In this document: positions 125-42,272 of the stretch, piece by piece
Layout: each line of letters opens with the position of its first letter
Numbering within the stretch: position 1 is the first letter of the stretch
Assembly: GCF_001428045.1 (NCBI RefSeq)
Contig: NZ_LMSD01000004.1
Coordinates: 1-64,000 of the forward strand
Source: Paenibacillus sp. Soil750
GTDB lineage: Bacteria; Bacillota; Bacilli; Paenibacillales; NBRC-103111
Length of the DNA: 64,000 nucleotides
Reading direction: 5' to 3'
The notes under the pieces: model-generated
Seen by the model: the letters and a program-made list of their open reading frames with translations, nothing else
Database searches by the model: none
What the model was told of the DNA's origin: nothing
Translations under genes and position numbers: made by a program

Positions 125-2341
125 TTACTTAAATTGCTTCAGAAGGCGCTTCGCCGTTCCGTTCGGTGTGTCAATGACTTCATACATATTGACAATGACG
201 CCAGTTTGCACTTGCTCGTTTTTCAAACCGGAAATGCTTACTCTCTGGCTACCGCTCGTTAACTTGCCTGTACCCATTAATGAAGCATCTTGGGTGCCAA
301 CGATACGACCGAGAGAATCGACCATTTCAAATTGGATTTTGGAGAAATTAGAATCAATAATGACTTGATCTTCATGTGTAATATCCATGTCTAGTTGAAG
401 AACATAGGAATAGGTTCCGCCGCTATACGTCCAGCCAATCGAGCTGTCATTCACTTTAAGTGAGAATGGATAGATCGCGATGGTATCTCCAGTTTCTTCT
501 CCCTGTAAAGCAACTTTGAACGTCCCTGCGGACACATTGCCTTCTGAAACGGACTTATCATCGTACACATTCAGCGCAAATGAATCATCTTCTGTCGTTT
601 CTTTATTAGGCAGCAAGTAGGAGTAGCTGACTACATAGGAGCTTCCTGGTGCAATTTGCGTAGCCGCCGCGCTTTGACGAGAGCCGGTATATGCATTGCC
701 TTTATTATCGATGAGCTCGTTCTGGAGATCAGGCAGCGCGAGCGTGCTCGTGCCGTTGTTCGTAATTTTGTATTTGGCGATCGCGGTTTTGTAGCCAAGA
801 TCGTCATTCTCATGCGCATGAAGCTCAATGAGCGATACATCCAGATTCGGGTTCACAACGCTGCTGCCCAGAGCAAGCTTGGTTCCAAGCTCATAGTCTA
901 CCGCTGTGGTGAAGCCGTTTTGGGCTACGCTCGCGCCTTTGAGCACGAAAACAGCCACAGGCTGTTGTCCCGTTGTTCCTGTTGTTCCTGTAGATCCTGT
1001 TGTTCCTGTTGTTCCCGTCGTAGCCCCACTGTTACCTGCCGTTGATCCGCTTCCCGTACTACCTGTCGTGGTCGTTGTCCCGCTCCCCGTCGTGCTTCCC
1101 GTGCTAGCCGCCGCTTTCTGCCACAGCACGAGCTGTGCCGCATTCGGATCGATGCCCGTTGGCAGCGTCGCATTGAAGTAATAAGTCGCCGTTTCCTTCG
1201 GCGCTAAAAAGCCGCTGCGCGTACTGTTATCTGTCGATGACACGGATGAGCCTGAGTCACCGAACTGGTAGGAGGCTGCCAAGGAAGGGACAGGAGCGAC
1301 AACGTCCCCGTCATTGCTCAGTGTAACCACCGTCTGAACATGGACACCATCCGCTTGAATCGAATACGTAGACGAGCTTGCCTTCGCAGTCACGTTCTCG
1401 CCATCTTGCTGCCCCGCATAGCTCTGTTTCACGCCCAAAGCTACCGTATTCAGCGACGAATTCATACTTAAAGTTCCCAGTGAAACATCTTCACTTTGAT
1501 TGAGATAATAATATTCCAACGTTAGCCCGCTTGTAGGCATGCCTTTAGAAATTAGCGTTTTGAGCGTCAAGGTATCGGACTGATTGGGCAAAATAGCCGT
1601 ATCCGCCCCACTCGCAACTGTCGCCGTGTATTTCATACCATTGGCATCCACAAGTCTAGCTAGCAATCCTGCGGGTACTTTCACGCTGCTTGAACCTAAG
1701 TTCTTTGCTGCAACTTGCGTGTACATGTACCATTTGCCATTCTCGGTCACACGTACGCTCTGGCCTAGCCCAAAAGCAAGGGACGCATCATTCGCAAGTG
1801 TGCTGTCTAGCGTGCGCAAGCTAATAATTTCTTCTGGCGCTTCCAGCTGCCCATCTTGGATGACGGAGGCAATCGGCAGCTCACCGAGATGATTCATGAA
1901 GTCGGATTTATTGTAATCCCAGCGGAATACATCCACTTTCAAATCAGCAGCATTTTCACCAGTTGGCAAATTCGCGTAGAATCTGAAGCTTTCCTCTTGC
2001 CCGCCGTTCACGATGCCGCTCTTTTTCTCACTCAAATTGGCCGTGTAACTATGTCCAGCACCATCCGTGACACGTACACCATACTTGTTAAAATCAAGCG
2101 TCTGATTTTCTCCATTATGGAACAGGACGGAAAATTGCAAGGATGATGAGGAAAGTGAAGCTCTATTTAGCATAAAATAGGAATCCTTCGAGATAAAAAC
2201 GCCCTCGGATGCGGCGTGTGCGGAAGGTACTGGAGCTGCCCATGAGGCAGCCAGCAAACTTCCCGTCAGTAGTACAGCTAGACTTGTCTGTTTAAGTGAG
2301 TTTTTGGAGCGGAGTCCAATCGATGTTAGTTGACGAATCAT
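125..2341 (-). CDS. Secreted multi-domain protein, last gene of the efflux operon
   Basis: 738 residues with an N-terminal signal peptide (about residues 1-43, ending SAHAA), so the product is exported. The mature part holds at least three copies of a beta-rich domain of about 130-170 residues, each with patterns such as 'LFHNGENQTLDF' and references to variables, constants and linkers typical of DUF4352-like surface domains. A low-complexity Thr/Gly/Ser linker lies at about residues 410-465. The start is set by AGGAGG 8 nt upstream of ATG. It follows the ABC permease by 20 bp and is probably its last co-transcribed gene. I do not recognise a catalytic domain. A cell-surface accessory or substrate of the transporter is inference. 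Confidence 0.7.
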   Translation of the reverse strand: MIRQLTSIGLRSKNSLKQTSLAVLLTGSLLAASWAAPVPSAHAASEGVFISKDSYFMLNRASLSSSSLQFSVLFHNGENQTLDFNKYGVRVTDGAGHSYTANLSEKKSGIVNGGQEESFRFYANLPTGENAADLKVDVFRWDYNKSDFMNHLGELPIASVIQDGQLEAPEEIISLRTLDSTLANDASLAFGLGQSVRVTENGKWYMYTQVAAKNLGSSSVKVPAGLLARLVDANGMKYTATVASGADTAILPNQSDTLTLKTLISKGMPTSGLTLEYYYLNQSEDVSLGTLSMNSSLNTVALGVKQSYAGQQDGENVTAKASSSTYSIQADGVHVQTVVTLSNDGDVVAPVPSLAASYQFGDSGSSVSSTDNSTRSGFLAPKETATYYFNATLPTGIDPNAAQLVLWQKAAASTGSTTGSGTTTTTGSTGSGSTAGNSGATTGTTGTTGSTGTTGTTGQQPVAVFVLKGASVAQNGFTTAVDYELGTKLALGSSVVNPNLDVSLIELHAHENDDLGYKTAIAKYKITNNGTSTLALPDLQNELIDNKGNAYTGSRQSAAATQIAPGSSYVVSYSYLLPNKETTEDDSFALNVYDDKSVSEGNVSAGTFKVALQGEETGDTIAIYPFSLKVNDSSIGWTYSGGTYSYVLQLDMDITHEDQVIIDSNFSKIQFEMVDSLGRIVGTQDASLMGTGKLTSGSQRVSISGLKNEQVQTGVIVNMYEVIDTPNGTAKRLLKQFK

Positions 2342-2360: not shown

Positions 2361-3536
2361 CTAATCGTAACGCAGAGCGTCGATAGGTTTTAATTTTGAT
2401 GCTTTATTCGCTGGATATAAACCGAAAATGACACCAACAAGTGCTGAGAATAAAAATGCGTAAAGCCCTACGTTGATCGAAAGACTCGTCTCTTGGCTTG
2501 GATTGATATACGGCCAGGCCAGTGATAAAGCGACCCCGACCAGCAGACCGATCAGACCACCCATCCCGCTAATCAAGGTAGCTTCGACTAGGAATTGCAG
2601 CAAAATATTTCTTCGCTTCGCCCCAATCGACTTCCGAATCCCGATCTCTCTCGTCCGCTCACTCACCGTCACGAGCATAATATTCATAATCCCGATCCCG
2701 CCTACAAGCAGGGAAATCGCAGCAACAGCAACCAATTGGTTGGTCAGCGTGCTAGACGCCGTTTGTCTTGCGCTAATGAGCTCGGATGAGTTCAAAATAT
2801 TGTAGCCGGTCGTGCTTTTAAACTTCTGAAATAAGTAAGCTTCTACGGCTAATTGTGCTCGGCTAACGAGGTCACCAGAGGATGCTTCCACATAGGCAGT
2901 CCGAATGTTACCTAGCTTAAAATCCCGGCTCATCGTCGGCAGCGGCACCAACACGGAGCTGTCTAAAGAAGTTCCGCTCGTATTGGAGCCTTTCGTTTGA
3001 AGAACACCGATAATCGTGTACATGTAGCCTTTCACATTAATTTCTTCGTCGATCGGATCTTCCTTGCCAAAAAACTTCGTAGCCACTTCACTCCCGATAA
3101 CCGCAACATGATTGCGGAAATCCAAATCTGCCTGAGCGAGGAAACGTCCGCTGGCCATCTTCCCCTTTTGCAGATCCAAATAACGGTCATTCGTTCCGAT
3201 CACATTGTAGCTCTCCGTTGTGCGGTCGAACTTAATGCTACTATTCTGCGTCATAGTGGGTGCAATCGACGAGATGCCCGCTGTGCCCTCTAGGGTCATG
3301 AACTCATCGTAATTCAACTGTGTGGCGCGTCCGTTCCCCATTAGGTTAACCGTTAGGAGATTCGTTCCTAGTCCTTCATATTGCTTTTCGATGGCTTTGG
3401 AGGTTCCTTGACCAATCGAGACAAGCGTGATCACCGAAGCAACCCCGATAATAACGCCTAGCATGGTCAGAACCGTTCGTAACGGATTCGAGCGAATGGT
3501 GCTCATCGCCATTTGGAAAAGCTCCCAAATTCTCAT
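2361..3536 (-). CDS. MacB/FtsX-type ABC transporter permease
   Basis: 391 residues. One membrane segment near residues 20-45 (containing 'LTMLGVIIGVAS') is followed by a large extracytoplasmic MacB-type periplasmic-core domain. Three C-terminal membrane segments form the FtsX domain, with the typical 'SERTREIGIRKSIGAKRR' coupling motif. It should act with the ATPase and the adaptor encoded upstream to export peptides, antibiotics or surface molecules. The ATG overlaps the ATPase stop codon by 4 nt (ATGA), indicating translational coupling. The substrate cannot be told from sequence. Confidence 0.92.
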   Translation of the reverse strand: MRIWELFQMAMSTIRSNPLRTVLTMLGVIIGVASVITLVSIGQGTSKAIEKQYEGLGTNLLTVNLMGNGRATQLNYDEFMTLEGTAGISSIAPTMTQNSSIKFDRTTESYNVIGTNDRYLDLQKGKMASGRFLAQADLDFRNHVAVIGSEVATKFFGKEDPIDEEINVKGYMYTIIGVLQTKGSNTSGTSLDSSVLVPLPTMSRDFKLGNIRTAYVEASSGDLVSRAQLAVEAYLFQKFKSTTGYNILNSSELISARQTASSTLTNQLVAVAAISLLVGGIGIMNIMLVTVSERTREIGIRKSIGAKRRNILLQFLVEATLISGMGGLIGLLVGVALSLAWPYINPSQETSLSINVGLYAFLFSALVGVIFGLYPANKASKLKPIDALRYD

Positions 3537-4258
3537 GAATGCGCCTCCTCTAACTTAGGCACTTCAACCGACCAAGCATCATTGCGCGTATCACTGACGA
3601 TTTCGCCATCTCGCAGCGCCACCACGCGCTTCGCATTGTCTGCAATGTGATGATCATGGGTGATCAACACAATCGTATTGCCCTGCTGATTTAACTCTTT
3701 GATCAACTCGAGTACCTCGATGCCCGTTTTGGAATCCAAGGCGCCTGTCGGTTCATCCGCTAGAATGAGCGACGGTGAAATGGCCAATGCACGCGCAATC
3801 GCAACCCGCTGCTGCTGTCCACCCGAAAGCTCACTTGGCTTGTGATGTCCACGTTCTCCCATCCCTAACTTCGTCAGCATGCGCTTGGCTTGTTCTTTCC
3901 GTTGTTTAGGAGGAATACCTGCATAAATCATCGGAAGCTCCACGTTCTCCATCGCTGTCAGCCTTGGCAACAGGTTAAACTGTTGAAAAATGAAACCAAT
4001 CTTCCGATTGCGCAGCTGAGCAAGTCCGTTGTCTGACATTTTCTCAGTAGCTACGCCATCCAATGTATATGAACCTGACGTTGGGCTGTCTAGCAGCCCA
4101 ATTGTATTCATCAACGTCGATTTACCCGATCCGCTGGGACCAATAATGGCGACAAAATCCCCTTCTGCAATATGCAGGGTAATGCCGCGCAAAATCTGCA
4201 ATTCCTCCGCACCACGGGTGTAACTCTTCGTGATCTCATTTAGCTCAATGATATTCAT
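3533..4258 (-). CDS. MacB-type ABC transporter ATP-binding protein
   Basis: 241 residues from the ATG at 4258, which has AAAGGAG 7 nt upstream. The open frame runs further 5' without a ribosome binding site. Walker [10 protein letters not shown] is at residues 40-48, the signature LSGGQ at about 144-148, Walker B LILADEP at about 164-170, and the H-loop in 'LITHDHH'. This is the LolD/MacB family of exporter ATPases, pairing with an FtsX-type permease. It lies between the adaptor gene (34 bp upstream) and the permease gene (4-nt overlap). Confidence 0.95.
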
Positions 4259-4292: not shown

Positions 4293-5987
4293 TTATTGAC
4301 GCGCTCCGCCACCGCCAGCATTACCGCCACCCTGGAAACCACCGCCGCCAGCAGCTCCACCTGCACCGCCTTGGAATCCGCCTGCGCCACCTGGGAAAGC
4401 ACCTCCGCCTGGGAAGCCTTGCTGTTGCTGATTTGTCGTCGTTGTCGCTCTGCGAACTGGCGTGACTACCTCTTCGCCTTCTTTTACGCCATCGAGCACT
4501 TCAACTTGCGTTTTGCTTCGAATACCTACTTTTAACTCCCGCTCTTCCGTTGTACCATCGGCCTTCTTCACCGTAACCGTCGACTTGCCTCTTGTTGTCG
4601 TCACGACTTGAATCGGTAGTACGAGAATATCCTTCTTATCTTGGATGAGGATTTCAGCCGTCGCCGTCATCGCATATTTCAAATCATTCTGTGCTGTATT
4701 CGGAATGGCCACAACCGCATCATACGTAGTCACGCCATTCGTCGTTGTACCCACATTGGATACAGAAGTCACTTCACCTGTAAAAGTTTTCCCTGCAATC
4801 GCATCGACTTTTACGTTAACCTTTTGTCCGACCTTCACACTCGTCAGATCAAGCTCATCCACAGCAATTGCGAGCTGCATCGTGCTTAGACTAGCCACTG
4901 CACCGAGCGTGGTGTTCGCATTAATCTGCGCGCCAACCGGGTAATTCCGAAGGACATTATTTTTACTGTTGGCAAAATCCGCCGAGAACACGCCATCAAA
5001 CGGTGCTTTGATCGTTAATTGATCGACTTTTTGCTGGGCATCGCTGACACGAATCTTCTGGCTTTCAATGGCAGATTGTTTGGAGACGATATTCTTTTGG
5101 AGGTCGTCGTTAAAAAGGGTCACAATCAGATCGCCTTGTTTAATCGTATCGCCATCTTTGAATTTCAGCGTTTTCACCGTACCGCTAGCTTCGGAGAAAA
5201 TAGACGCCGTGCGCACATAAGCAAGTTCAGCCTGATCGGAGGACGCCACCTTGGTAGTGCCGCTGCCGATACTGCCTTTGACCTTTAAGCCTGCCGAAAG
5301 CGTACCATCGTTATCGACGAGCACATCGACCAACACCACTTTATTCCCATTCGCGTCAGCGCTAATTTCATGGCCAATCGTATCGACTGCTCCAACCTTG
5401 GATAACAAGTAGCCATCCACGCTCAGCTCTACGGGGTCACCTTTTTTCAGTTGCACAGCTTCTTGCAGTGAAAATGGCAGTTTTACCTTAAACTGCGTTG
5501 TATCTGAAATCGTACCGATCTTCGTCGTTTTATTCACTTGGCTGCCAACATCAAAATTAGCATTCAGTGTGATCTTGCCCGACATCGGAGAGGATACGCT
5601 CATATTTCCTTGTTCAGACTGCAGCTCAGCTAGATCACTCTCCAGCTGCCCCAAGGTCACTTGCGCTTCCTTGAGATTCGTTTCCGTTGACGGGACAGAA
5701 AGTTCGACGAGCACATCGCCTTTTTTAACCGCTTGATTCTGGGTTAAATTCATCGTTTTGATGATACCTTCGATCGGGATCACAATGTTTTGCTTATCCT
5801 TAGCGTCCAATTGGGAGGTCCCTGATACGGCCATCGAAATGGCGCCCTTGGTCACTTTCATTGTCGTTTGTTGTGTTGCCGCTGTTGCTGGCTTCGCATT
5901 ATTATGTACATAGTAGTATGTACCTGCCCCACACAGGATGGCCGCCAGGGCTACTATGAGCCACCTTTTCTTACTGCCTACTTTCAT
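4293..5987 (-). CDS. HlyD/MacA-type efflux adaptor subunit
   Basis: 564 residues. One N-terminal membrane anchor (about 9-29) precedes two biotinyl/lipoyl-like half-domain sets (around 60-150 and 255-350) with coiled-coil segments and beta-barrel regions, as in membrane-fusion adaptors of MacAB-type exporters. The adaptor core is duplicated compared with a simple MacA. The last 40 residues are an unusual Gly-rich tail of GGAGGF/GGG repeats. It is the first gene of the efflux operon. A six-box CTGA array with 11-bp period ends 10 nt from a TAGACT -10 element upstream, so control by the neighbouring two-component system is likely. Confidence 0.88.
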   Translation of the reverse strand: MKVGSKKRWLIVALAAILCGAGTYYYVHNNAKPATAATQQTTMKVTKGAISMAVSGTSQLDAKDKQNIVIPIEGIIKTMNLTQNQAVKKGDVLVELSVPSTETNLKEAQVTLGQLESDLAELQSEQGNMSVSSPMSGKITLNANFDVGSQVNKTTKIGTISDTTQFKVKLPFSLQEAVQLKKGDPVELSVDGYLLSKVGAVDTIGHEISADANGNKVVLVDVLVDNDGTLSAGLKVKGSIGSGTTKVASSDQAELAYVRTASIFSEASGTVKTLKFKDGDTIKQGDLIVTLFNDDLQKNIVSKQSAIESQKIRVSDAQQKVDQLTIKAPFDGVFSADFANSKNNVLRNYPVGAQINANTTLGAVASLSTMQLAIAVDELDLTSVKVGQKVNVKVDAIAGKTFTGEVTSVSNVGTTTNGVTTYDAVVAIPNTAQNDLKYAMTATAEILIQDKKDILVLPIQVVTTTRGKSTVTVKKADGTTEERELKVGIRSKTQVEVLDGVKEGEEVVTPVRRATTTTNQQQQGFPGGGAFPGGAGGFQGGAGGAAGGGGFQGGGNAGGGGARQ

Positions 5988-6055: not shown

Positions 6056-6137
6056 AGTCTACTAGGGGCGACTGAAACCTGTCTGAGTGTAAGCTGAAAG
6101 TAAGTTGAACGAAAGCTGAGCGTTTGCTGAAAATGGG
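6056..6137 (-). promoter_or_regulatory. Six 11-bp-phased response-regulator boxes and -10 of the efflux operon
   Basis: CTGA-type boxes start at 6072, 6083, 6094, 6105, 6116 and 6127 (box 4 is TTGA), an exact 11-bp period. Read toward the operon, the final TTTCAG is followed by 10 nt and a -10-like TAGACT at 6056-6061. Direct repeats with 11-bp spacing are typical of OmpR/PhoP-family binding sites. The same array and spacing occur upstream of three other promoters in this window. Confidence 0.8.
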
Positions 6138-6345
6138 GACGGGCTGTGTGCCAGCGCTGAAGTTGCTGCTGCTGCAGATATTGCTAGTGCTACTGCTACT
6201 ACCACTGCTACTGCTACACTACTGTTGCTGCCAGTACCAATACCAGTGCTGCTACCGATATTGCCAGTGCCACTGCCACTGCTGCTACCGCCGAAATCCG
6301 ACTGCCACCAAGATTATTGCCACCCGTCTGCCACCCTACGCACAA
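6138..6345. other. Low-complexity triplet-rich intergenic stretch
   Basis: This stretch is dominated by GCTGCT/CTACTG/CCAGTG triplet runs (about 6158-6295). On the minus strand one frame reads a Gly/Ser-rich peptide of the GSSSGSGTGN type and others read Ala/Val runs, with GGTGGCA motifs just upstream and several stops. It has no start codon with a ribosome binding site. It may be a decayed Gly-rich coding segment or simple slippage-prone DNA. I see no gene in it. Confidence 0.5.
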
Positions 6346-6533
6346 TTAACTGGAAAAACTCCAGCTATTCTTCTGGTTTTCCATCAAATCTAGAGATTAG
6401 ATGGAAAATGTACATCTATTTCTTCACTTTCTGGCGTACTTGGCCTAATAGCTCGAAATTAGCTGTACTTTTTACAGTTAGTAGAATGAAAACGGGAATT
6501 CATGCGAAATTAACTGTATGTTTTCCAGTTGTT
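6346..6533. repeat. Four-palindrome array, block A (51-62-51 spacing)
   Basis: Four 24-bp imperfect palindromes start at 6346, 6397, 6459 and 6510. Each has a left arm like TTARMTGKA and a right arm like TMCAKYTAWT. Units 1-2 and 3-4 are in opposite orientation, judged by the GGA/GTA asymmetry. Start-to-start distances are 51, 62 and 51 bp, the same as in the blocks at 8251, 13403, 16464 and 42085. The sequence between units is not shared. Confidence 0.85.
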
Positions 6534-6613
6534 ATGCTCGACATATTCCTACACTTAGCTACTTTAAGTGCTCCCTATCTAGCAACATTGCAGCAACTTC
6601 CCACCTCAAGCAC

Positions 6614-6642
6614 AAAAAGCCGCTCACATGGTGAGCAGCTTT
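6614..6642 (-). terminator. Terminator after the Gly-rich secreted protein gene
   Basis: On the minus strand a stem AAAGCTGCTCAC / GTGAGCGGCTTT with a short loop is followed by a T run. It lies 14 bp past the stop codon of the leftward gene ending at 6656. Confidence 0.75.
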
Positions 6643-6655
6643 CTATTACAACCCC

Positions 6656-7465
6656 TTAGTTAGTAGCTGTCGGAGCTGGTGTTGCTGATTGTTTGGATGC
6701 ACCCCGATCAGGACGCTGGTGAGCCGTACCTTTCTCCTCAACAGCCTTCTTGATCGAATCTGTCATACCGTCTTTAATTTTGCTGATCAAATCATCTTCG
6801 CTAATCCCTTTCGCTGTTGCGATATCCACGAGGGATTTGCCTGATTCCAGCTCTGTTCTCAACTCATCTTGTGTAATACCCAGAATTGTCGTGATGACTT
6901 CTGGATTGCCGAAGTGTCCACCACCAAAGCCTCCTGGACCTCCTTTACCTCCAGGTCCACCTTTACCGCCGCCTGGAAAGCCGCCCTTGAAGCCAGTGCT
7001 ATCAATTTGCTTCGTTAATTGGTCGCTCAAACCTTTAATAATCTCATCGGCCTTCTCTTGTGTCAGCTTCCCAGCTGTGACTTCAGCTGTAATCGTAGCT
7101 GTCTCGGCTGCAACAAGCTTGGACAAGTAATCTTCCTTCGATAATCCTTTTTCAAGGGCAAACGCTGCTAATGTTTTATCTGCTTTAAGTGCTTCCTGCA
7201 CAGCGCTTTCTTCAACGCTTAGAATCGTTGCTGTTTCTTTTATCACGTTACCGCCACGGAAGCCACCGCGATCTCCCATTTGTCCACGACCTTTATCGTT
7301 AAAGCCTTTGCCGCCCTGTCCTGCTGTTGGTGCCGCTGTGCTTGTGGAATTTCCTACTGCTGTATCTGCGAACGCTTCGTTATGTAGGGCTCCTACTAAG
7401 CCAACTCCGATGACAAAAGATGCTACTAGTGAACCTGCGAGAATTTTTTTGCTGATTTTTTTCAT
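6656..7465 (-). CDS. Secreted Gly-rich protein with two DUF2680-like repeats
   Basis: 269 residues from the ATG at 7465 (MKKISKK), preceded by GAGGTGG. The longer frame's ATG overlaps that ribosome binding site. A signal peptide ends near 'AFA'. Two related helical repeats follow (about 75-155 and 185-240), each with a pattern like 'SVEESAVQEALKADKTL' / 'ITQDELRTELESGKSL', separated by a Gly/Lys/Pro-rich linker. The repeats resemble the DUF2680 (YckD-like) family. The function is unknown. Its promoter carries the same six-box array as the efflux operon, so it should be a member of that regulon. Confidence 0.65.
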   Translation of the reverse strand: MKKISKKILAGSLVASFVIGVGLVGALHNEAFADTAVGNSTSTAAPTAGQGGKGFNDKGRGQMGDRGGFRGGNVIKETATILSVEESAVQEALKADKTLAAFALEKGLSKEDYLSKLVAAETATITAEVTAGKLTQEKADEIIKGLSDQLTKQIDSTGFKGGFPGGGKGGPGGKGGPGGFGGGHFGNPEVITTILGITQDELRTELESGKSLVDIATAKGISEDDLISKIKDGMTDSIKKAVEEKGTAHQRPDRGASKQSATPAPTATN

Positions 7466-7519
7466 AATGGTATTCCACCTCATCTTTGGATTTGTGTTTG
7501 TGTTTCCCTTACAAAACCA

Positions 7520-7601
7520 AGTATAGACCCCTTACCTGAAACCCATCTGAGCGTAAACTGAAGGTTGGTTGAGAGCTATCTGAGAATTGGCTGAAAATGG
7601 T
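7520..7601 (-). promoter_or_regulatory. Six 11-bp-phased response-regulator boxes and -10 of the Gly-rich protein gene
   Basis: CTGA-type boxes start at 7536, 7547, 7558, 7569, 7580 and 7591. Box 4 is again TTGA and boxes 2 and 5 are CTGAG, matching the efflux promoter box for box. After TTTCAG (minus strand), 10 nt separate the array from a -10 TATACT at 7520-7525. Confidence 0.82.
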
Positions 7602-7713
7602 ATGGCTTAAATTACATTAAAATTTGCGTACTGGTGTTCGATTTCAGCATTCTTTATGGTAGAATAAGGATTATATGAGCACAATTTCGAAATAGATAGG
7701 GGGACGCTGTCTA

Positions 7714-8100
7714 ATGTCTTATCGTAAAGAGCGCAATAAGCTAATCGCTTACTGGGTAACCACCATCCTAGGACCTGCGAGTTTCGTCATCGGAGGATTC
7801 TTCTTCATAACCCATGGTGAGCAGCAAATCACTACATTGACTGGGCTCGGATATCCCGAGTATATTTTGACCATCCTGGGCTTCTGGAAGCTGATGGCCG
7901 TCATTGCCATCCTGATCCCGCGTTTTCCCCGACTGAAAGAATGGGCATACGCTGGCTTTTTCTTCGAGCTCACGGGAGCAGCAGCTTCGCATATTTTGAA
8001 TGGCGATGGCTTAGTCCTCGCTGCCCAGCCGCTAGTATTTCTAGCGCTCGTCATGGCATCATGGGCACTTCGCCCGAGTAGCCGTAAGCTTGTTTCTTAG
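7714..8100 (+). CDS. DoxX-like family membrane protein
   Basis: 128 residues with four predicted membrane segments (about 12-32, 50-67, 75-95 and 98-118), a size and pattern typical of the DoxX_2 family. The N-terminus is basic and cytoplasmic. The molecular role of the family is not settled. ATG at 7714 has GGGGGA upstream. A possible SigA -10 (TAGAAT, 7660-7665) with a weak -35 lies upstream. It is monocistronic, with its own terminator directly after the stop. Confidence 0.75.
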   Translation: MSYRKERNKLIAYWVTTILGPASFVIGGFFFITHGEQQITTLTGLGYPEYILTILGFWKLMAVIAILIPRFPRLKEWAYAGFFFELTGAAASHILNGDGLVLAAQPLVFLALVMASWALRPSSRKLVS

Positions 8101-8111
8101 CTGATGCCAAG

Positions 8112-8137
8112 GGCCAACCGTTCGACGGTTGGCCTTT
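8112..8137 (+). terminator. Terminator of the DoxX-like gene
   Basis: Perfect 9-bp stem GGCCAACCG / CGGTTGGCC with a TTCGA loop followed by TTT, starting 12 bp after the stop codon. Confidence 0.85.
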
Positions 8138-8250
8138 CGTGTACGCGGGATAGGCAATGCTGGTGGGGAGGAGGATGGGTTAGAGTAGCTAGTTTATGGT
8201 GGGTTGCGAAAACTGTTTGCGCTGGGATGCATTCCCCTTCCCCACAACCA

Positions 8251-8438
8251 TTAACAGTAAAAAGTACAGTTAATTCCCGCACAATTCCCTACTACCAACC
8301 TTTAACTGGATTTCCTCCATCTATTTCTGACGATTTCAGTGAAATCAGCCACTTCAGCTGAATTTAGCTACATGAAATCCATCTATTTGCTCAAAATCAG
8401 GATTTTCATCCAAATTAACTGTATGAAATCCATCTATT
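8251..8438. repeat. Four-palindrome array, block B (51-62-51 spacing)
   Basis: Units of 24 bp start at 8251, 8302, 8364 and 8415. The block fills the space between two convergent genes (DoxX-like and histidine kinase), between their terminators. The spacing is identical to the other four blocks and the spacers are different. No gene is seen in 8138-8501. Confidence 0.85.
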
Positions 8439-8501
8439 GCCGCCGCCGAAGCTGAATACTCGGCATGAATCCGGGTGCCACTGGGCACGCCGCCAACACA
8501 A

Positions 8502-8531
8502 AAGAGGCCAACGCCTCAGCGTCAGCCTCTT
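8502..8531 (-). terminator. Terminator of the two-component operon
   Basis: On the minus strand a stem AAGAGGCTGACGC / GCGTTGGCCTCTT closes on TGAG and is followed by a T-rich stretch. It lies just downstream of the histidine kinase stop. Confidence 0.75.
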
Positions 8532-8541
8532 CTTCTCCTAC

Positions 8542-10056
8542 CTATCGCGGCAACCGCACGATAAACGCGCTTCCCTCACCGACGGTGCTCTCCACATGAA
8601 TAGATCCGCCATGCAGCTCCACAATGGAGCGCGTAATCGAAAGGCCTAAGCCCGCTCCGCCGCTGCGTCTTGCCCGCGAGGAGTCGATGCGGTAAAACCG
8701 ATCGAACAAATGGGCGATATGCTCCGGCGCAATCCCTGGGCCGTTATCACGTACAGCGATCTCAATGCCTGCGTCCCTCCTCGTCAGTGAGACCCTTACC
8801 TCACCTGTCTCTGGATGCGTATGCTGGACGGCATTGTGGAACAAGTTGAGGATCACTTGCTTGATTTTATCCGGATCGCAATGACACAGCGTCTCCGGCT
8901 CCAAGAGGAAGGTGACCACCCTCTCGCCTGCGAGCAGACGCAGCTGATGCTCCATTTCATGAAGCACATCGTCCATGGCTACCTCCGTCTTATGGAAAGA
9001 CGGCGTTCGGTCCAACCGCGCCAATAGCAGCAGGTCCTCAACTAATTTATTAATACGGACGGATTCGCCGTGCATACTTTTCAAAGCTTTCAACAGCGGT
9101 TCAGGCTGTTGATATGCCCCACGCAGCAGCACCTCCAGGAAGCCATGAATGGAAGTAAGCGGTGTGCGAAGCTCATGCGAGGCATCCGCAGCAAAACGCC
9201 GCATCTGCTCCTTCGCTTCCTTTTCCGCCTCAAAAGAAAATTCCAACCGCTCCAGCATACTATTGAAGGAAGTCGCTAAGCGATCCATCTCCGCCTGCCC
9301 TTGATGGTCAGGGAAGCGTTCATTCAAGTTACCGGAATCAATACTTTTTACCGTATCTACCAAATTAGACAGTGGCACAAGTGTCCGGCGCAGCACAGGC
9401 AGGAAACCTAGCAACCCAATAACCATCGCAAGCATGGATAGAAATAGGAACGTGAGCAGCTGCCTTAGGAGAACATCCTTAATCGGCGCTGTGCTTGTAC
9501 TTGCTTGAATGAGCCCCTGATAGCCGCGGGAACGATCTGGTTCCCCTCCCCCGATTTGATGAAACACAATTAATTGCTCATTCCCTTTGCTGTCTTTCAT
9601 GATTAAATGTTCCTGCTTCTTTGTGCGCTTTTGCAGGATTCTCACATATTCTTCTTTGTCCAACTCCAGCGTCGACTGTTCATCTTGGGAGGAAACGAGT
9701 TTATAGGTCCCTTTGTCATCAATCAGCGCAATTGTTAAATCCGGTACGAAAATCCGCGGACCTTCGCCGAAATTATCCTGCCGATTGTTGCGCATGAAAT
9801 CCTGCCTAGGCAGAAATGGGCTTGTACTCTTATCTCCTCCTAGCTCAGCCCGAAGCCACACGTTAGGCGGCAGTGCTGCAAGCTGGTTGCGAATCGTCTC
9901 TGCTTTATTTTGAAACATAAACTGCTGCATGAATACATATTGAAACACGCCAATTAACAGCAAGAGTGCCGACATCACCAATAAGGTGCGAGATAAAATT
10001 TGAAACTTTAAGGATTTCGTCTCCAAGACAGCAGCGAACCAACCGCGCGTCTTCAT
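8542..10056 (-). CDS. Sensor histidine kinase
   Basis: 504 residues. Two membrane segments (about 22-45 and 200-222) flank an extracytoplasmic sensor domain of about 150 residues. A HAMP linker (about 223-275), a HisKA domain with phospho-acceptor His294 in 'DASHELRTPLTS', and a HATPase_c domain with a 'GAGLGLSI' G-box follow. Its start overlaps the response regulator stop by 4 nt. The pair sits between promoters carrying 11-bp-phased boxes, so it probably controls the neighbouring efflux and secreted-protein genes. The signal is unknown. Confidence 0.93.
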   Translation of the reverse strand: MKTRGWFAAVLETKSLKFQILSRTLLVMSALLLLIGVFQYVFMQQFMFQNKAETIRNQLAALPPNVWLRAELGGDKSTSPFLPRQDFMRNNRQDNFGEGPRIFVPDLTIALIDDKGTYKLVSSQDEQSTLELDKEEYVRILQKRTKKQEHLIMKDSKGNEQLIVFHQIGGGEPDRSRGYQGLIQASTSTAPIKDVLLRQLLTFLFLSMLAMVIGLLGFLPVLRRTLVPLSNLVDTVKSIDSGNLNERFPDHQGQAEMDRLATSFNSMLERLEFSFEAEKEAKEQMRRFAADASHELRTPLTSIHGFLEVLLRGAYQQPEPLLKALKSMHGESVRINKLVEDLLLLARLDRTPSFHKTEVAMDDVLHEMEHQLRLLAGERVVTFLLEPETLCHCDPDKIKQVILNLFHNAVQHTHPETGEVRVSLTRRDAGIEIAVRDNGPGIAPEHIAHLFDRFYRIDSSRARRSGGAGLGLSITRSIVELHGGSIHVESTVGEGSAFIVRLPR

Positions 10057-10736
10057 GTCAAATCCATCCGATACCCCGCCCCGCGAATGGTGCGAATCAG
10101 CTTGTGCTCCTTATCTCCTAATTTGTCGCGCAGGGAGCGTATGTACACTTCCACAATATTTTCCTCACCGCCAAAATCATAGCCCCACACTTTATCCAGA
10201 ATCATCGTCTTACTCAGCACGAGACCGTGATTGATCGCCATAAATTTAAGCAACTCGTATTCCGTTGGCGATAGCTCCAAGATCCGATCATGCATACTGA
10301 TTTCTTTGCGGCGGTCGTCCATGCGAAGCGGTCCAATAACGACTTCCCCGAACAAGTTTGGAAAATGGTTCCGAATCCGCGCATAGATCCGCGCTAGCAG
10401 CTCCTCAAAGCTAAACGGTTTGATCATGTAATCATCGGCTCCGAGTGTTAACCCTTTTACCCGATCATCGATTTCATCTTTGGCTGTTAGCATAATGACC
10501 GCGACATTGTCTGTCTTCTTAATCATGCGACATACCTCGAAACCATCCATCCCAGGCATCATGACATCCAGAATCGCGATATGCGGCTGAAATTTATTAC
10601 AAGCTGTGATCGCACTGATGCCATCTTGTGCCGTCATCACTTCGAAGCCTTCGTTCGTTAGCCCTAGCTCTAGAAATTCTAAGATATGCGGCTCGTCATC
10701 GACGAGTAGTATTTTAATCCCTTTTAATTGACGCAT
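10053..10736 (-). CDS. OmpR/PhoB-family response regulator
   Basis: 227 residues. A receiver domain has the acidic pair in 'VDDEP', phospho-acceptor Asp57 in 'AILDVMMPGMDG', and Lys in 'MIKPFS'. A C-terminal winged-helix Trans_reg_C domain ends in 'IRTIRGAGYRMD'. It is the first gene of the two-component operon. Its own promoter carries three to four of the 11-bp-phased CTGA boxes, which suggests autoregulation. It is the most economical candidate for the protein that binds all four arrays, though this is inference from proximity. Confidence 0.94.
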   Translation of the reverse strand: MRQLKGIKILLVDDEPHILEFLELGLTNEGFEVMTAQDGISAITACNKFQPHIAILDVMMPGMDGFEVCRMIKKTDNVAVIMLTAKDEIDDRVKGLTLGADDYMIKPFSFEELLARIYARIRNHFPNLFGEVVIGPLRMDDRRKEISMHDRILELSPTEYELLKFMAINHGLVLSKTMILDKVWGYDFGGEENIVEVYIRSLRDKLGDKEHKLIRTIRGAGYRMDLT

Positions 10737-10785
10737 CTGCCATCGTCTCCCCCGAGAAATTCATTCGTACACGACTTCTACAATC

Positions 10786-10846
10786 AGTATCCCATATCCT
10801 GCCTAAAAGCAATCTGAGCAGCGGCTGAAAGCTAGCTGAAAGTTAA
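10786..10846 (-). promoter_or_regulatory. Phased boxes upstream of the two-component operon
   Basis: CTGA boxes start at 10814, 10825 and 10836, and a CTAA at 10803 continues the 11-bp phase. A -10-like GATACT (minus strand, 10786-10791) lies 11 nt beyond. It is weaker than the six-box arrays but has the same orientation and geometry. Confidence 0.65.
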
Positions 10847-10853
10847 CATATCT

Positions 10854-10906
10854 TCAGCTACTTTTCAGCTAACGGTCAATTCAATCTCAGCTACCCCTCA
10901 TATACT
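10854..10906 (+). promoter_or_regulatory. Phased boxes and -10 upstream of the ApbE-like gene
   Basis: On the plus strand, TCAG/TCAA boxes start at 10854, 10865, 10876 and 10887 (11-bp period, inverted relative to the operon-facing boxes). CTCAG ends at 10890, followed by 10 nt and TATACT at 10901-10906. This is the same array-N10-(-10) geometry as the efflux promoter, here facing the divergent gene. Confidence 0.75.
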
Positions 10907-10950: not shown

Positions 10951-11721
10951 ATGACAATGACAACAAACACCTTCCTCCCCTTTCATTTTCAAACGCTGGA
11001 CTCGGCTATTGAACTTCTTCTTCCCCTCGGTGAGCAGAGACAACAGCTGCGGATTCATGAGATCGGCAACGAATGGTTCGGGCGTGAAGAAAAGCGATTC
11101 AGCCAAAGCCTCCCTGACAGTGAAATTAACCTTTTAAATACATTAGCCGGTGAAAGCTGCCTTGTGTCCAACGCCATGCTAGAGGTACTGTTCCTTGCTG
11201 AAATGTATCAAGCCATCACAGATGGTAAATATACGCCTCTTCTATATAAAGAGAAGACCACGCTAACCCACATACCAGCTCCTGCAACGCAAGGTTGGAA
11301 GGTAAATCCTACGACCAAATCAGTTACACTGCCGGAGCATACGTATATTCATTTGCAAGGACTCGACAAAAGTTGGTCCCTGAAAAGATTAACCGACTAT
11401 TTGAAGAAAACCTTATCCATTTCACGGGGACGCCTGCTATCTCAGGGCGATGTCACGATCTGGGGACCATCTAGCTCCGAGCAGGAGCCATGGATGATCG
11501 GGATTCAAAATCCATGGCACGAGAACGCCAAGTTAGGTGCGATTGCGATGCCAGAGGGAGCGCTATCTACGTACAATCCACTCGAAGATCGCAGAGATGC
11601 TGACTCCGGCAGCGATGTACTGCAATGCACAGTTGCTGGTCATGATCTCGTGGCATGCCATGTATGGGCACGATTGTTAGGCTCACTTGGGCTAGAGGCT
11701 GGCCTGTCCCTCTTCGCCTAA
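10951..11721 (+). CDS. ApbE-like FMN transferase-family protein, cut short by a stop codon
   Basis: 256 residues up to a TAA at 11719-11721. The pattern follows the ApbE family (FAD:protein FMN transferase): '[10 protein letters not shown]' near residue 55, a beta-strand region '[15 protein letters not shown]', '[16 protein letters not shown]', 'WMIGIQNPW' and 'GALSTYN'. The usual H-x-x-D-P-x-T-G motif is not recognisable. The frame continues for 52 codons beyond the stop with family-like sequence. It may therefore be a nonsense-disrupted gene or a divergent non-catalytic relative. Start: ATG 10951 with GAGGAATTC upstream. It is divergent from the two-component operon and has its own phased boxes. 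Confidence 0.6.
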
Positions 11722-13402: not shown

Positions 13403-13590
13403 TTAACTGGAAAAACTACAGCTATTTTGCGCAAGAAATGCTATTTGTTTTGAATAACTGGATTTCCTCCAGCTAATTTTGCACATCTTCGTTGAAATTG
13501 ACGAATGACGTGAAATTAGCTGGGGTTTTTCCATTTAAATGATGATTTCGATTCTAATTGGTTAGTTTAACTGGAGGTTTTCCATTTAAT
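13403..13590. repeat. Four-palindrome array, block C (51-62-51 spacing)
   Basis: Units of 24 bp start at 13403, 13454, 13516 and 13567. The central spacer has an inverted repeat, TTCGT...ACGAA (13488-13505), centred exactly on the middle of the block. It lies between two co-directional genes. Confidence 0.85.
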
Positions 13591-16463: not shown

Positions 16464-16651
16464 ATAACTGGAAAATGTACAGCTATTCAAGGCAATCTCC
16501 CTACAATATTAGATTTAGATGGAAAAGGTACAGTTAATATCTCCAAATTTGGTCATGTGGACGGAAATCCCTGAATTTAACTGTAGGTAATCCATCTATT
16601 CTGTTTTTTGGAGGAAAAACTCTTGAATTAGCTGTAGAATATCCATCTATT
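16464..16651. repeat. Four-palindrome array, block D (51-62-51 spacing)
   Basis: Units of 24 bp start at 16464, 16515, 16577 and 16628, again 51, 62 and 51 bp apart. The block lies between two leftward genes. No gene is seen in 16293-16675. Confidence 0.85.
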
Positions 16652-42084: not shown

Positions 42085-42272
42085 TTAACTGGATTCTATG
42101 TAGCTAATTTTGCTGATTTCCACTCATGCGCGAGAATAACTGGATTTCCTGTAGGTAATTCCCGCCCAAATCGGCAATATCACCAATTCCGGCAATTTTA
42201 ACTGTACTTTTTCCATCTATTCGTTCGATTCCATCAAATACGGATGAATTAGCTGTATGTTTTTCATTTAGT
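42085..42272. repeat. Four-palindrome array, block E (51-62-51 spacing)
   Basis: Units of 24 bp start at 42085, 42136, 42198 and 42249. The block lies between convergent genes (ECF operon and HD-GYP gene) and is about 25 kb from block D, yet has identical geometry. No gene is seen in 42006-42333. Confidence 0.85.

Follow-up and report, generated by a model that had tools for sequence, protein, structure and literature searches.

Response regulators that act on direct repeats with a period of 11 base pairs (bp) have been described in several bacteria. Here, we analyze such a system and its putative operators in Paenibacillus sp. Soil750, i.e., in positions 1 to 64,000 of contig NZ_LMSD01000004.1 (this whole stretch of 64,000 nucleotides (nt) is called the window in the following; the genome comprises 8.3 Mb). 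The system is of a known type, that is, an OmpR/PhoB-type regulator with 11-bp repeats. We are confident that the arrays of short boxes found in the window are operators of the neighbouring response regulator, which would activate its own operon together with a set of envelope and secretion targets.

The closest solved protein is PhoP of M. tuberculosis, which shares both the 11-bp direct repeats and a CAGC core with the system studied here. According to PMC4832192, PhoP binds TCACAGC-N4-TCACAGC as a tandem head-to-tail dimer with a strict 4-bp spacer, and binding is tighter for three or four repeats. Within the complex, the core C and A are contacted by Asn212, whereas Glu215 touches the bases paired with G and C. 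Val213, Tyr217 and Tyr220 interact with the 5' bases, with Ser216 in the middle of the site; the joint reading of the C-A-G-C of TCACAGC by Asn212 and Glu215 is a base pairing that we worked out from the single pair stated in that source. In a sequence alignment, the window regulator keeps these contacts as N193 (Asn212), E196 (Glu215), Y198 and the wing residue R218, and it has I, V and S at the positions of Val213, Ser216 and Tyr220, i.e., three of the six base-contacting residues are changed. The boxes of the window retain the CAGC core and show TTY in their 5' part in place of the TCA of PhoP. As far as aligned residues can tell, recognition helix and wing are compatible with the box motif. 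Further differences to PhoP are the row length (at most six boxes here) and the targets. Those mycobacterial homologues that carry the PhoP helix show 42-43% identity to the window regulator.

The pho box of E. coli PhoB and the sites of Streptomyces PhoP likewise consist of 11-nt direct repeats that are bound head to tail in variable unit number, while motif, targets and presumably the signal differ from our system (PMC4415409). B. subtilis YrkPQ and C. difficile HexRK are two-component systems with small envelope-related regulons; YrkP controls ykcBC, and here YkcB-type glycosyltransferases carry the array (PMC10128005; PMC5836110). B. subtilis CssRS, which controls htrA genes in envelope/secretion stress, is comparable in its role; efflux, ApbE, PepSY and glycosyltransferase targets set the window system apart from it (PMC12826053). 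Literature searches for a TTCAG operator, for the binding sequences of YrkP, YclJ or CssR and for a combined YkcB/PepSY/HtrA regulon returned no description of the window system, and no YrkP operator sequence was found in the literature searched. A 2008 study of YrkP-recognised sequences reportedly exists, which could bear on novelty.

Putative operator arrays in the window

The arrays and their -10 elements, the latter read from the sequence, are as follows.

6072..6130, minus strand: six-box array of the efflux operon, CTGA/TTGA at 6072, 6083, 6094, 6105, 6116 and 6127 (last base 6130)
6056..6061, minus strand: efflux-operon -10, TAGACT; distance to the closest box 10 nt
7536..7594, minus strand: six-box array of the glycine-rich secreted protein gene, in identical register to the efflux array
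7520..7525, minus strand: -10 of the glycine-rich gene, TATACT; distance to the closest box 10 nt
10803..10839, minus strand: putative autoregulatory array, three perfect boxes (10814-10839) and an imperfect TTTAG (CTAA on the plus strand, 10803)
10786..10791, minus strand: putative regulator-promoter -10, GATACT; distance to the imperfect box 11 nt
10854..10890, plus strand: four-box array of the ApbE-like gene (TCAG, TCAG, TCAA, TCAG)
10901..10906, plus strand: -10 of the ApbE-like gene, TATACT; distance to the closest box 10 nt

These coordinates bear out the preliminary description, which had reported six CTGA/TTGA boxes at exact 11-bp steps before both the efflux operon and the glycine-rich gene, with the last box 10 nt from TAGACT and TATACT, respectively. 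The same holds for the divergent region between regulator and ApbE-like gene, where three perfect boxes and one imperfect box face four, and the ApbE side again ends 10 nt from TATACT. The distance from proximal box to -10 is thus 10 nt at three of the four window promoters. A pho box lies about 10 bp from the -10. The wording of the motif needs correction: CTGA/TTGA is right for the plus strand, but transcription of the respective genes leads away from the arrays on the opposite strand; read in the direction of transcription, the operator is therefore TCAG/TCAA. In this sense, the unit reads YTCAGC-N5 (with TCAA variants) at a pitch of 11 bp. Both window arrays also agree in having TTGA as box 4 and CTGAG as boxes 2 and 5, as noted before; a degenerate box 4 recurs throughout the genus loci introduced below, whereas the CTGAG detail varies there.

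Chance does not account for these patterns. Six-box matches occur twice in the window and not once in 100 dinucleotide shuffles, and its 11 three-box matches compare with a shuffle mean of 0.12. When periods from 5 to 30 are scanned in the window, chains of more than three boxes appear at 11 only. In the whole genome, the perfect four-box pattern yields seven overlapping matches, each of which falls into the efflux, the glycine-rich or the ApbE-side array (reversed control: 0), such that perfect four-box arrays are confined to the window loci. With this pattern, the own genome shows no arrays of like quality in front of numerous unrelated genes under other regulators, an outcome which the preliminary description had named as refuting its proposal. 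The three-box pattern has 18 genome-wide matches (11 of them in the window arrays; control: 3), and L248, where the own genome matches with two boxes, looks like chance. We also reject the idea that the arrays are a general repeat family and no operator, given that perfect four-box arrays of the own genome are found only upstream of the window target genes. An RNA element is discarded too, as the array promoters do not transcribe the boxes, which are located upstream of the -10.

The genes of the window system are listed next.

10053..10736, minus strand: OmpR/PhoB-family response regulator of 227 amino acids (aa), the proposed binder; Response_reg and Trans_reg_C; closest solved sequence M. 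tuberculosis PhoP (E-value 3e-54)
8542..10056, minus strand: sensor histidine kinase, 504 aa, overlapping the regulator gene; HAMP, HisKA, HATPase_c
10951..11721, plus strand: ApbE-like protein, a possible flavin transferase; ApbE, E-value 1.6e-13
4293..5987, minus strand: HlyD/MacA-type adaptor of the efflux operon; HlyD_D23, HlyD_3
3533..4258, minus strand: ABC ATPase; ABC_tran; start probably here and not at the 4402 start of the open reading frame (ORF)
2361..3536, minus strand: MacB/FtsX-type permease; MacB_PCD, FtsX
125..2341, minus strand: DUF4352-type protein, 738 aa, probably the last efflux-operon gene as judged by the gap of about 20 bp
6656..7483, minus strand: glycine-rich protein with signal-like N-terminus, true start probably at 7465

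With its receiver domain and winged-helix Trans_reg_C domain, the regulator belongs to the OmpR/PhoB family. It stays below the NCBIfam equivalog cut-offs for MtrA (207.1 vs. 300 bits), PhoB (205.4 vs. 296.2) and YycF (182.3 vs. 340). Pfam and NCBIfam scans of the glycine-rich protein (6656-7483) gave no match.

Conservation in the genus and putative targets beyond the locus

The four-box pattern is present in all 30 genus genomes, own included. We studied 40 genus loci from 19 of these genomes, picked for arrays among the matches listed for G000 to G019; array presence is thus given by construction while the classes of downstream genes are not. The loci hold 90 arrays, which precede HlyD adaptors (19), glycine-rich genes (18), regulators (18), ApbE-like genes (16), PepSY_TM genes (5), a second regulator (3), PspA genes (3) and YkcB-type glycosyltransferases (2), leaving five unassigned and one with no downstream ORF. 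Chains of at least four boxes within these 625 kb number 67 at the 11-bp step, one at 22, and none at 17 other steps from 6 to 24.

Promoter geometry is equally uniform. For offsets of 7 to 14, the best -10 starts exactly 10 nt from the end of the proximal box in 63/63 arrays of HlyD, glycine-rich, ApbE, PepSY, second-regulator and glycosyltransferase genes. The other 27 of the 90 arrays, i.e., 18 regulator promoters, three PspA arrays, five unassigned ones and the one lacking a downstream ORF, are outside this count. At 16 of the 18 regulator promoters, an imperfect fourth box (TTTAG) follows beyond the array as parsed; the two remaining ones lie 10 nt (L174) and 11 nt (L152) from the -10. 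The -35 consensus is matched at no more than three of six positions in 57 of the 63 promoters and at four in the other six, where about 12% of random positions reach four or more. No enrichment of a -35 is what is expected of activator-dependent promoters.

Arrays that lack a -10 at 10 nt were observed as well. At PspA/IM30-like genes (L143, L148, L157; Pfam run on L157 only), a four-box array lies about 300-370 bp upstream with a shared TTGG...TTAAG stretch in place of the -10, and for the missing -10 we left these arrays out of the regulon. A five-box array (L140:8141) and a four-box array (L153:7820), the latter before an NlpC/P60 protein, have no -10 at this distance either.

A relaxed search of the own genome (four boxes plus -10, up to three mismatches) yields eight matches (control: 0). 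Five fall into known arrays and three are new, weaker ones that precede genes for an HtrA-type trypsin/PDZ protease (six boxes by inspection), a PPIC/SurA_N foldase of PrsA/SurA type and a FlxA-like protein. The FlxA-like assignment scores 26.1 bits, i.e., just below the cut-off of 26.3; a FlxA-like gene behind four boxes also occurs in Desulfosporosinus (L212).

The arrays of the protease and the foldase are conserved in the genus. Among 53 listed matches of an HtrA search, 22 were taken as HtrA-A and eight of the 31 others were scored as HtrA-B paralogues: the array lies upstream of 21/22 HtrA-A genes vs. 0/8 HtrA-B. Since the first HtrA-B upstream windows were partly inside longer coding frames, we repeated the test on all 1.1-1.5 kb upstream with unchanged outcome. 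Here, the 21 HtrA-A genes score 17.25-19.75 with 0/60 shuffles as good, the sole exception (L303) scores 14.5, and the HtrA-B genes reach 12.5-14.5, a range that between 1 and 25 of their 60 shuffles match. For PrsA-like foldases, 24/25 genus genes have a four-box array upstream and the exception is only 40% identical. The -10 at 10 nt is built into both scores, such that the spacing at these genes is no independent evidence.

Targets may also lie far from the regulator. In the one-contig genome G005, 0.8 Mb or more separate the PepSY array from the regulator cluster, and in G008 the distance is 0.7 Mb. The efflux array of G018 is on a different contig, hundreds of kilobases from contig ends. 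A PMT_2 plus YkcB_C gene stands behind six boxes at genus locus L142; in the own genome, none of the arrays found stands before a YkcB-type gene. Outside the genus, arrays precede genes for YkcB-like glycosyltransferases, PepSY-like proteins, YceI, HtrA, a GalE-type epimerase, VTC, HlyD, ApbE and secreted proteins, where glycosyltransferase and PepSY-like names are given by sequence likeness to the scanned genus proteins. Thus, of the earlier proposal of one local regulon comprising efflux pump, secreted proteins, ApbE-like protein and the system itself, the membership is supported while 'local' proved too narrow: the htrA, prsA-like and flxA-like arrays of the own genome and the remote targets in relatives reject a purely local regulon.

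The probable binding regulator and its proposed mode of action

The regulator at 10053 had been suggested as the likely binder, and clade co-occurrence, the array at its own promoter and the fit of its recognition helix speak for this; very probably, this neighbouring OmpR-type regulator is the protein that binds the arrays. Orthologues with about 70% identity or more exist in Desulforamulus, Moorella, Paradesulfitobacterium, Desulfosporosinus, Ectobacillus, Brevibacillus, Cohnella and Paenibacillus. We compared 31 of them (23 from the orthologue search and eight from a phylum draw) with 57 regulators of at most 62% identity, one of which has only 34 nt upstream. At least two chained boxes in correct sense within 250 bp upstream are found for 28/31 orthologues vs. 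0/57 distant regulators (Fisher test 6e-20, a value that is only indicative because rows are related, e.g., two Desulfosporosinus rows have identical arrays). The orthologues have a common recognition helix, and Ser at the position of PhoP Tyr220 is found in 31/31 orthologues and 0/57 other regulators, 29/57 of which have Tyr. The co-occurrence is also reflected in the phylum draw of 149 genomes, nine of which encode the regulator (own genome included). Arrays with a -10 at 10 nt occur in 6/9 of these vs. 2/140 genomes without regulator; this filter allows up to two extra degenerate boxes and covers the fetched loci, with the own genome represented by its window arrays. One of the two regulator-less genomes (G084) is GC-rich and its array looks like chance.

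Given these observations, we propose the following mechanism. The kinase would phosphorylate the regulator, which would bind YTCAGC units head to tail with one protein per 11 bp. Bound regulators would build dimers and longer rows with the promoter-proximal protein 10 nt from the -10, from where it would recruit RNA polymerase to promoters that have no good -35. The regulator would thereby activate its own operon, the MacAB-type efflux operon, the glycine-rich secreted protein and the ApbE-like gene, and weaker arrays elsewhere would provide activation of the HtrA protease, the PrsA/SurA-type foldase and the FlxA-like protein. While arrays, fixed geometry, co-occurrence with the regulator clade and target conservation are computed, we infer that the regulator is phosphorylated, binds the boxes and activates instead of repressing, and we likewise infer the stress signal. 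A target list that includes HtrA and a foldase suggests an envelope or secretion-stress response, and an activator-driven regulon of this kind is the most likely interpretation.

Several observations weigh against it. The reversed control in the 30 genus genomes has 14 matches in seven of them, and some four-box matches are plain tandem repeats. The three PspA arrays and all five unassigned genus arrays have no -10 at 10 nt. Three of the 31 orthologues (L180, L035, L047) show no two-box chain upstream (L047 has a divergent five-box array), and G051 and G095 carry the regulator with only two boxes at its promoter. If no -10 is demanded, the phylum contrast weakens to four-box matches in 7/9 vs. 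15/140 genomes, with the reversed control matching in six genomes. Furthermore, no regulator was found in the 80% complete genome G150 (L220, L240), where a convincing five/six-box array with -10 precedes a 218-aa protein with signal-like N-terminus; here, the regulator may be missing from the incomplete assembly. Finally, the envelope-stress assignment, which the targets suggest, is drawn from target families only.

With regard to the direction of control, the regulator could bind the arrays as a repressor and release them when the kinase is inactive. We consider this unlikely. Boxes 1 and 2 overlie the -35 region, a site used by repressors too, and the proximal box is degenerate in 16/18 genus regulator promoters, but the missing -35 excess (57/63 promoters at three or fewer of six matches) is as expected where an activator replaces -35 contacts, and the 10-nt spacing in 63/63 arrays would be needless for repression.

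Still less probable is that the neighbouring gene is no more than one of the targets and that the arrays belong to a different protein, e.g., another OmpR-type regulator. Such a role could be sought in a second, about 30% identical regulator that itself carries an array in three genomes (L163, L172, L176). This protein was met in only these three genomes among the fetched loci, however, and the arrays track the first regulator through distant Firmicutes with one recognition helix among its orthologues. The second regulator deserves mention in its own right: its six-box array is of efflux type and adjoins the first system (L163:14344, L172:14757, L176:11408), an arrangement which suggests that one two-component system has been placed under another. 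A recent promoter duplication, rather than selection for operator grammar, as the cause of the likeness of the two six-box arrays is very improbable: besides the boxes, some spacer letters (e.g., GTAA) are common to both, but box types are kept through 19 + 18 genus arrays while spacers differ, and similar arrays precede unrelated genes in other genera.

Two other repeat types were noted in the window. Directly upstream of the efflux array, 6156-6300 is non-coding-looking DNA with a degenerate CTG/CTA-rich direct repeat, whose 33-nt copies are 61-76% identical to the reference copy. Moreover, a near-palindromic dispersed 22-nt repeat, TTARCTGTANNTTTTNCANYTA, is located at 6347-6531, 8251-8273, 13404-13588, 16465-16598 and 42198-42270. 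It has 56 exact matches in the genome (control: 0), several copies being paired 51 bp apart, and the related pattern with up to three mismatches matches 12 times in the window vs. 0.13 expected.

Weak-box placement and its implications

Degenerate boxes are not evenly distributed within arrays. Counted from the promoter, 26/60 even positions but only 2/61 odd positions are degenerate in 25 target arrays from outside the genus; per array, 17 are even-biased, two odd or tied, and six have no degenerate box. These counts are not independent: promoter L034 enters them twice, once per register, and several arrays stem from related glycosyltransferase promoters. Genus arrays have their weak box at position 4 in 19/19 efflux and 18/18 glycine-rich cases, at position 2 (TCAA) in 16/16 ApbE cases, and at positions 2 and 4 in 21/21 HtrA cases. 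On the other hand, the even-position rule is contradicted by a second weak box at position 5 in 4/19 efflux arrays, by odd weak boxes in the HtrA array of L299 and the foldase arrays of L320 and L323, and by weak box 1 at regulator promoters (16/18 in the genus, 3/14 outside); we also list against it five PepSY arrays that have no weak box.

Since weak boxes occur almost only at even positions, their placement suggests head-to-tail dimers anchored on the promoter-proximal half-site. Extending this, we tentatively put forward, with slightly less than even confidence, an undescribed phylum-wide Firmicutes regulon for envelope quality (efflux, YkcB-type glycosyltransferase, PepSY, ApbE, HtrA, PrsA-like foldase and secreted glycine-rich proteins) with a dimer grammar. 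Its 22-bp pairs would combine a strict proximal TTCAG with a deliberately weakened upstream TCAA, TCAT or TTAAG, and box number together with weak-box placement would set the response of each promoter. Neither the regulon nor its wide target set nor the weak-box rule is described in the literature searched, with subscription literature largely outside the reach of that search.

The analysis provides a testable operator code with regulator and target list for a two-component system whose orthologues range from Paenibacillus to Desulfosporosinus, Desulforamulus and Moorella. The even/odd rule of weak boxes raises the general question of half-site asymmetry tuning head-to-tail rows of OmpR-type regulators. 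If true, the proposed regulon would explain how envelope repair, export and surface glycosylation are co-ordinated in large-genome soil Firmicutes.

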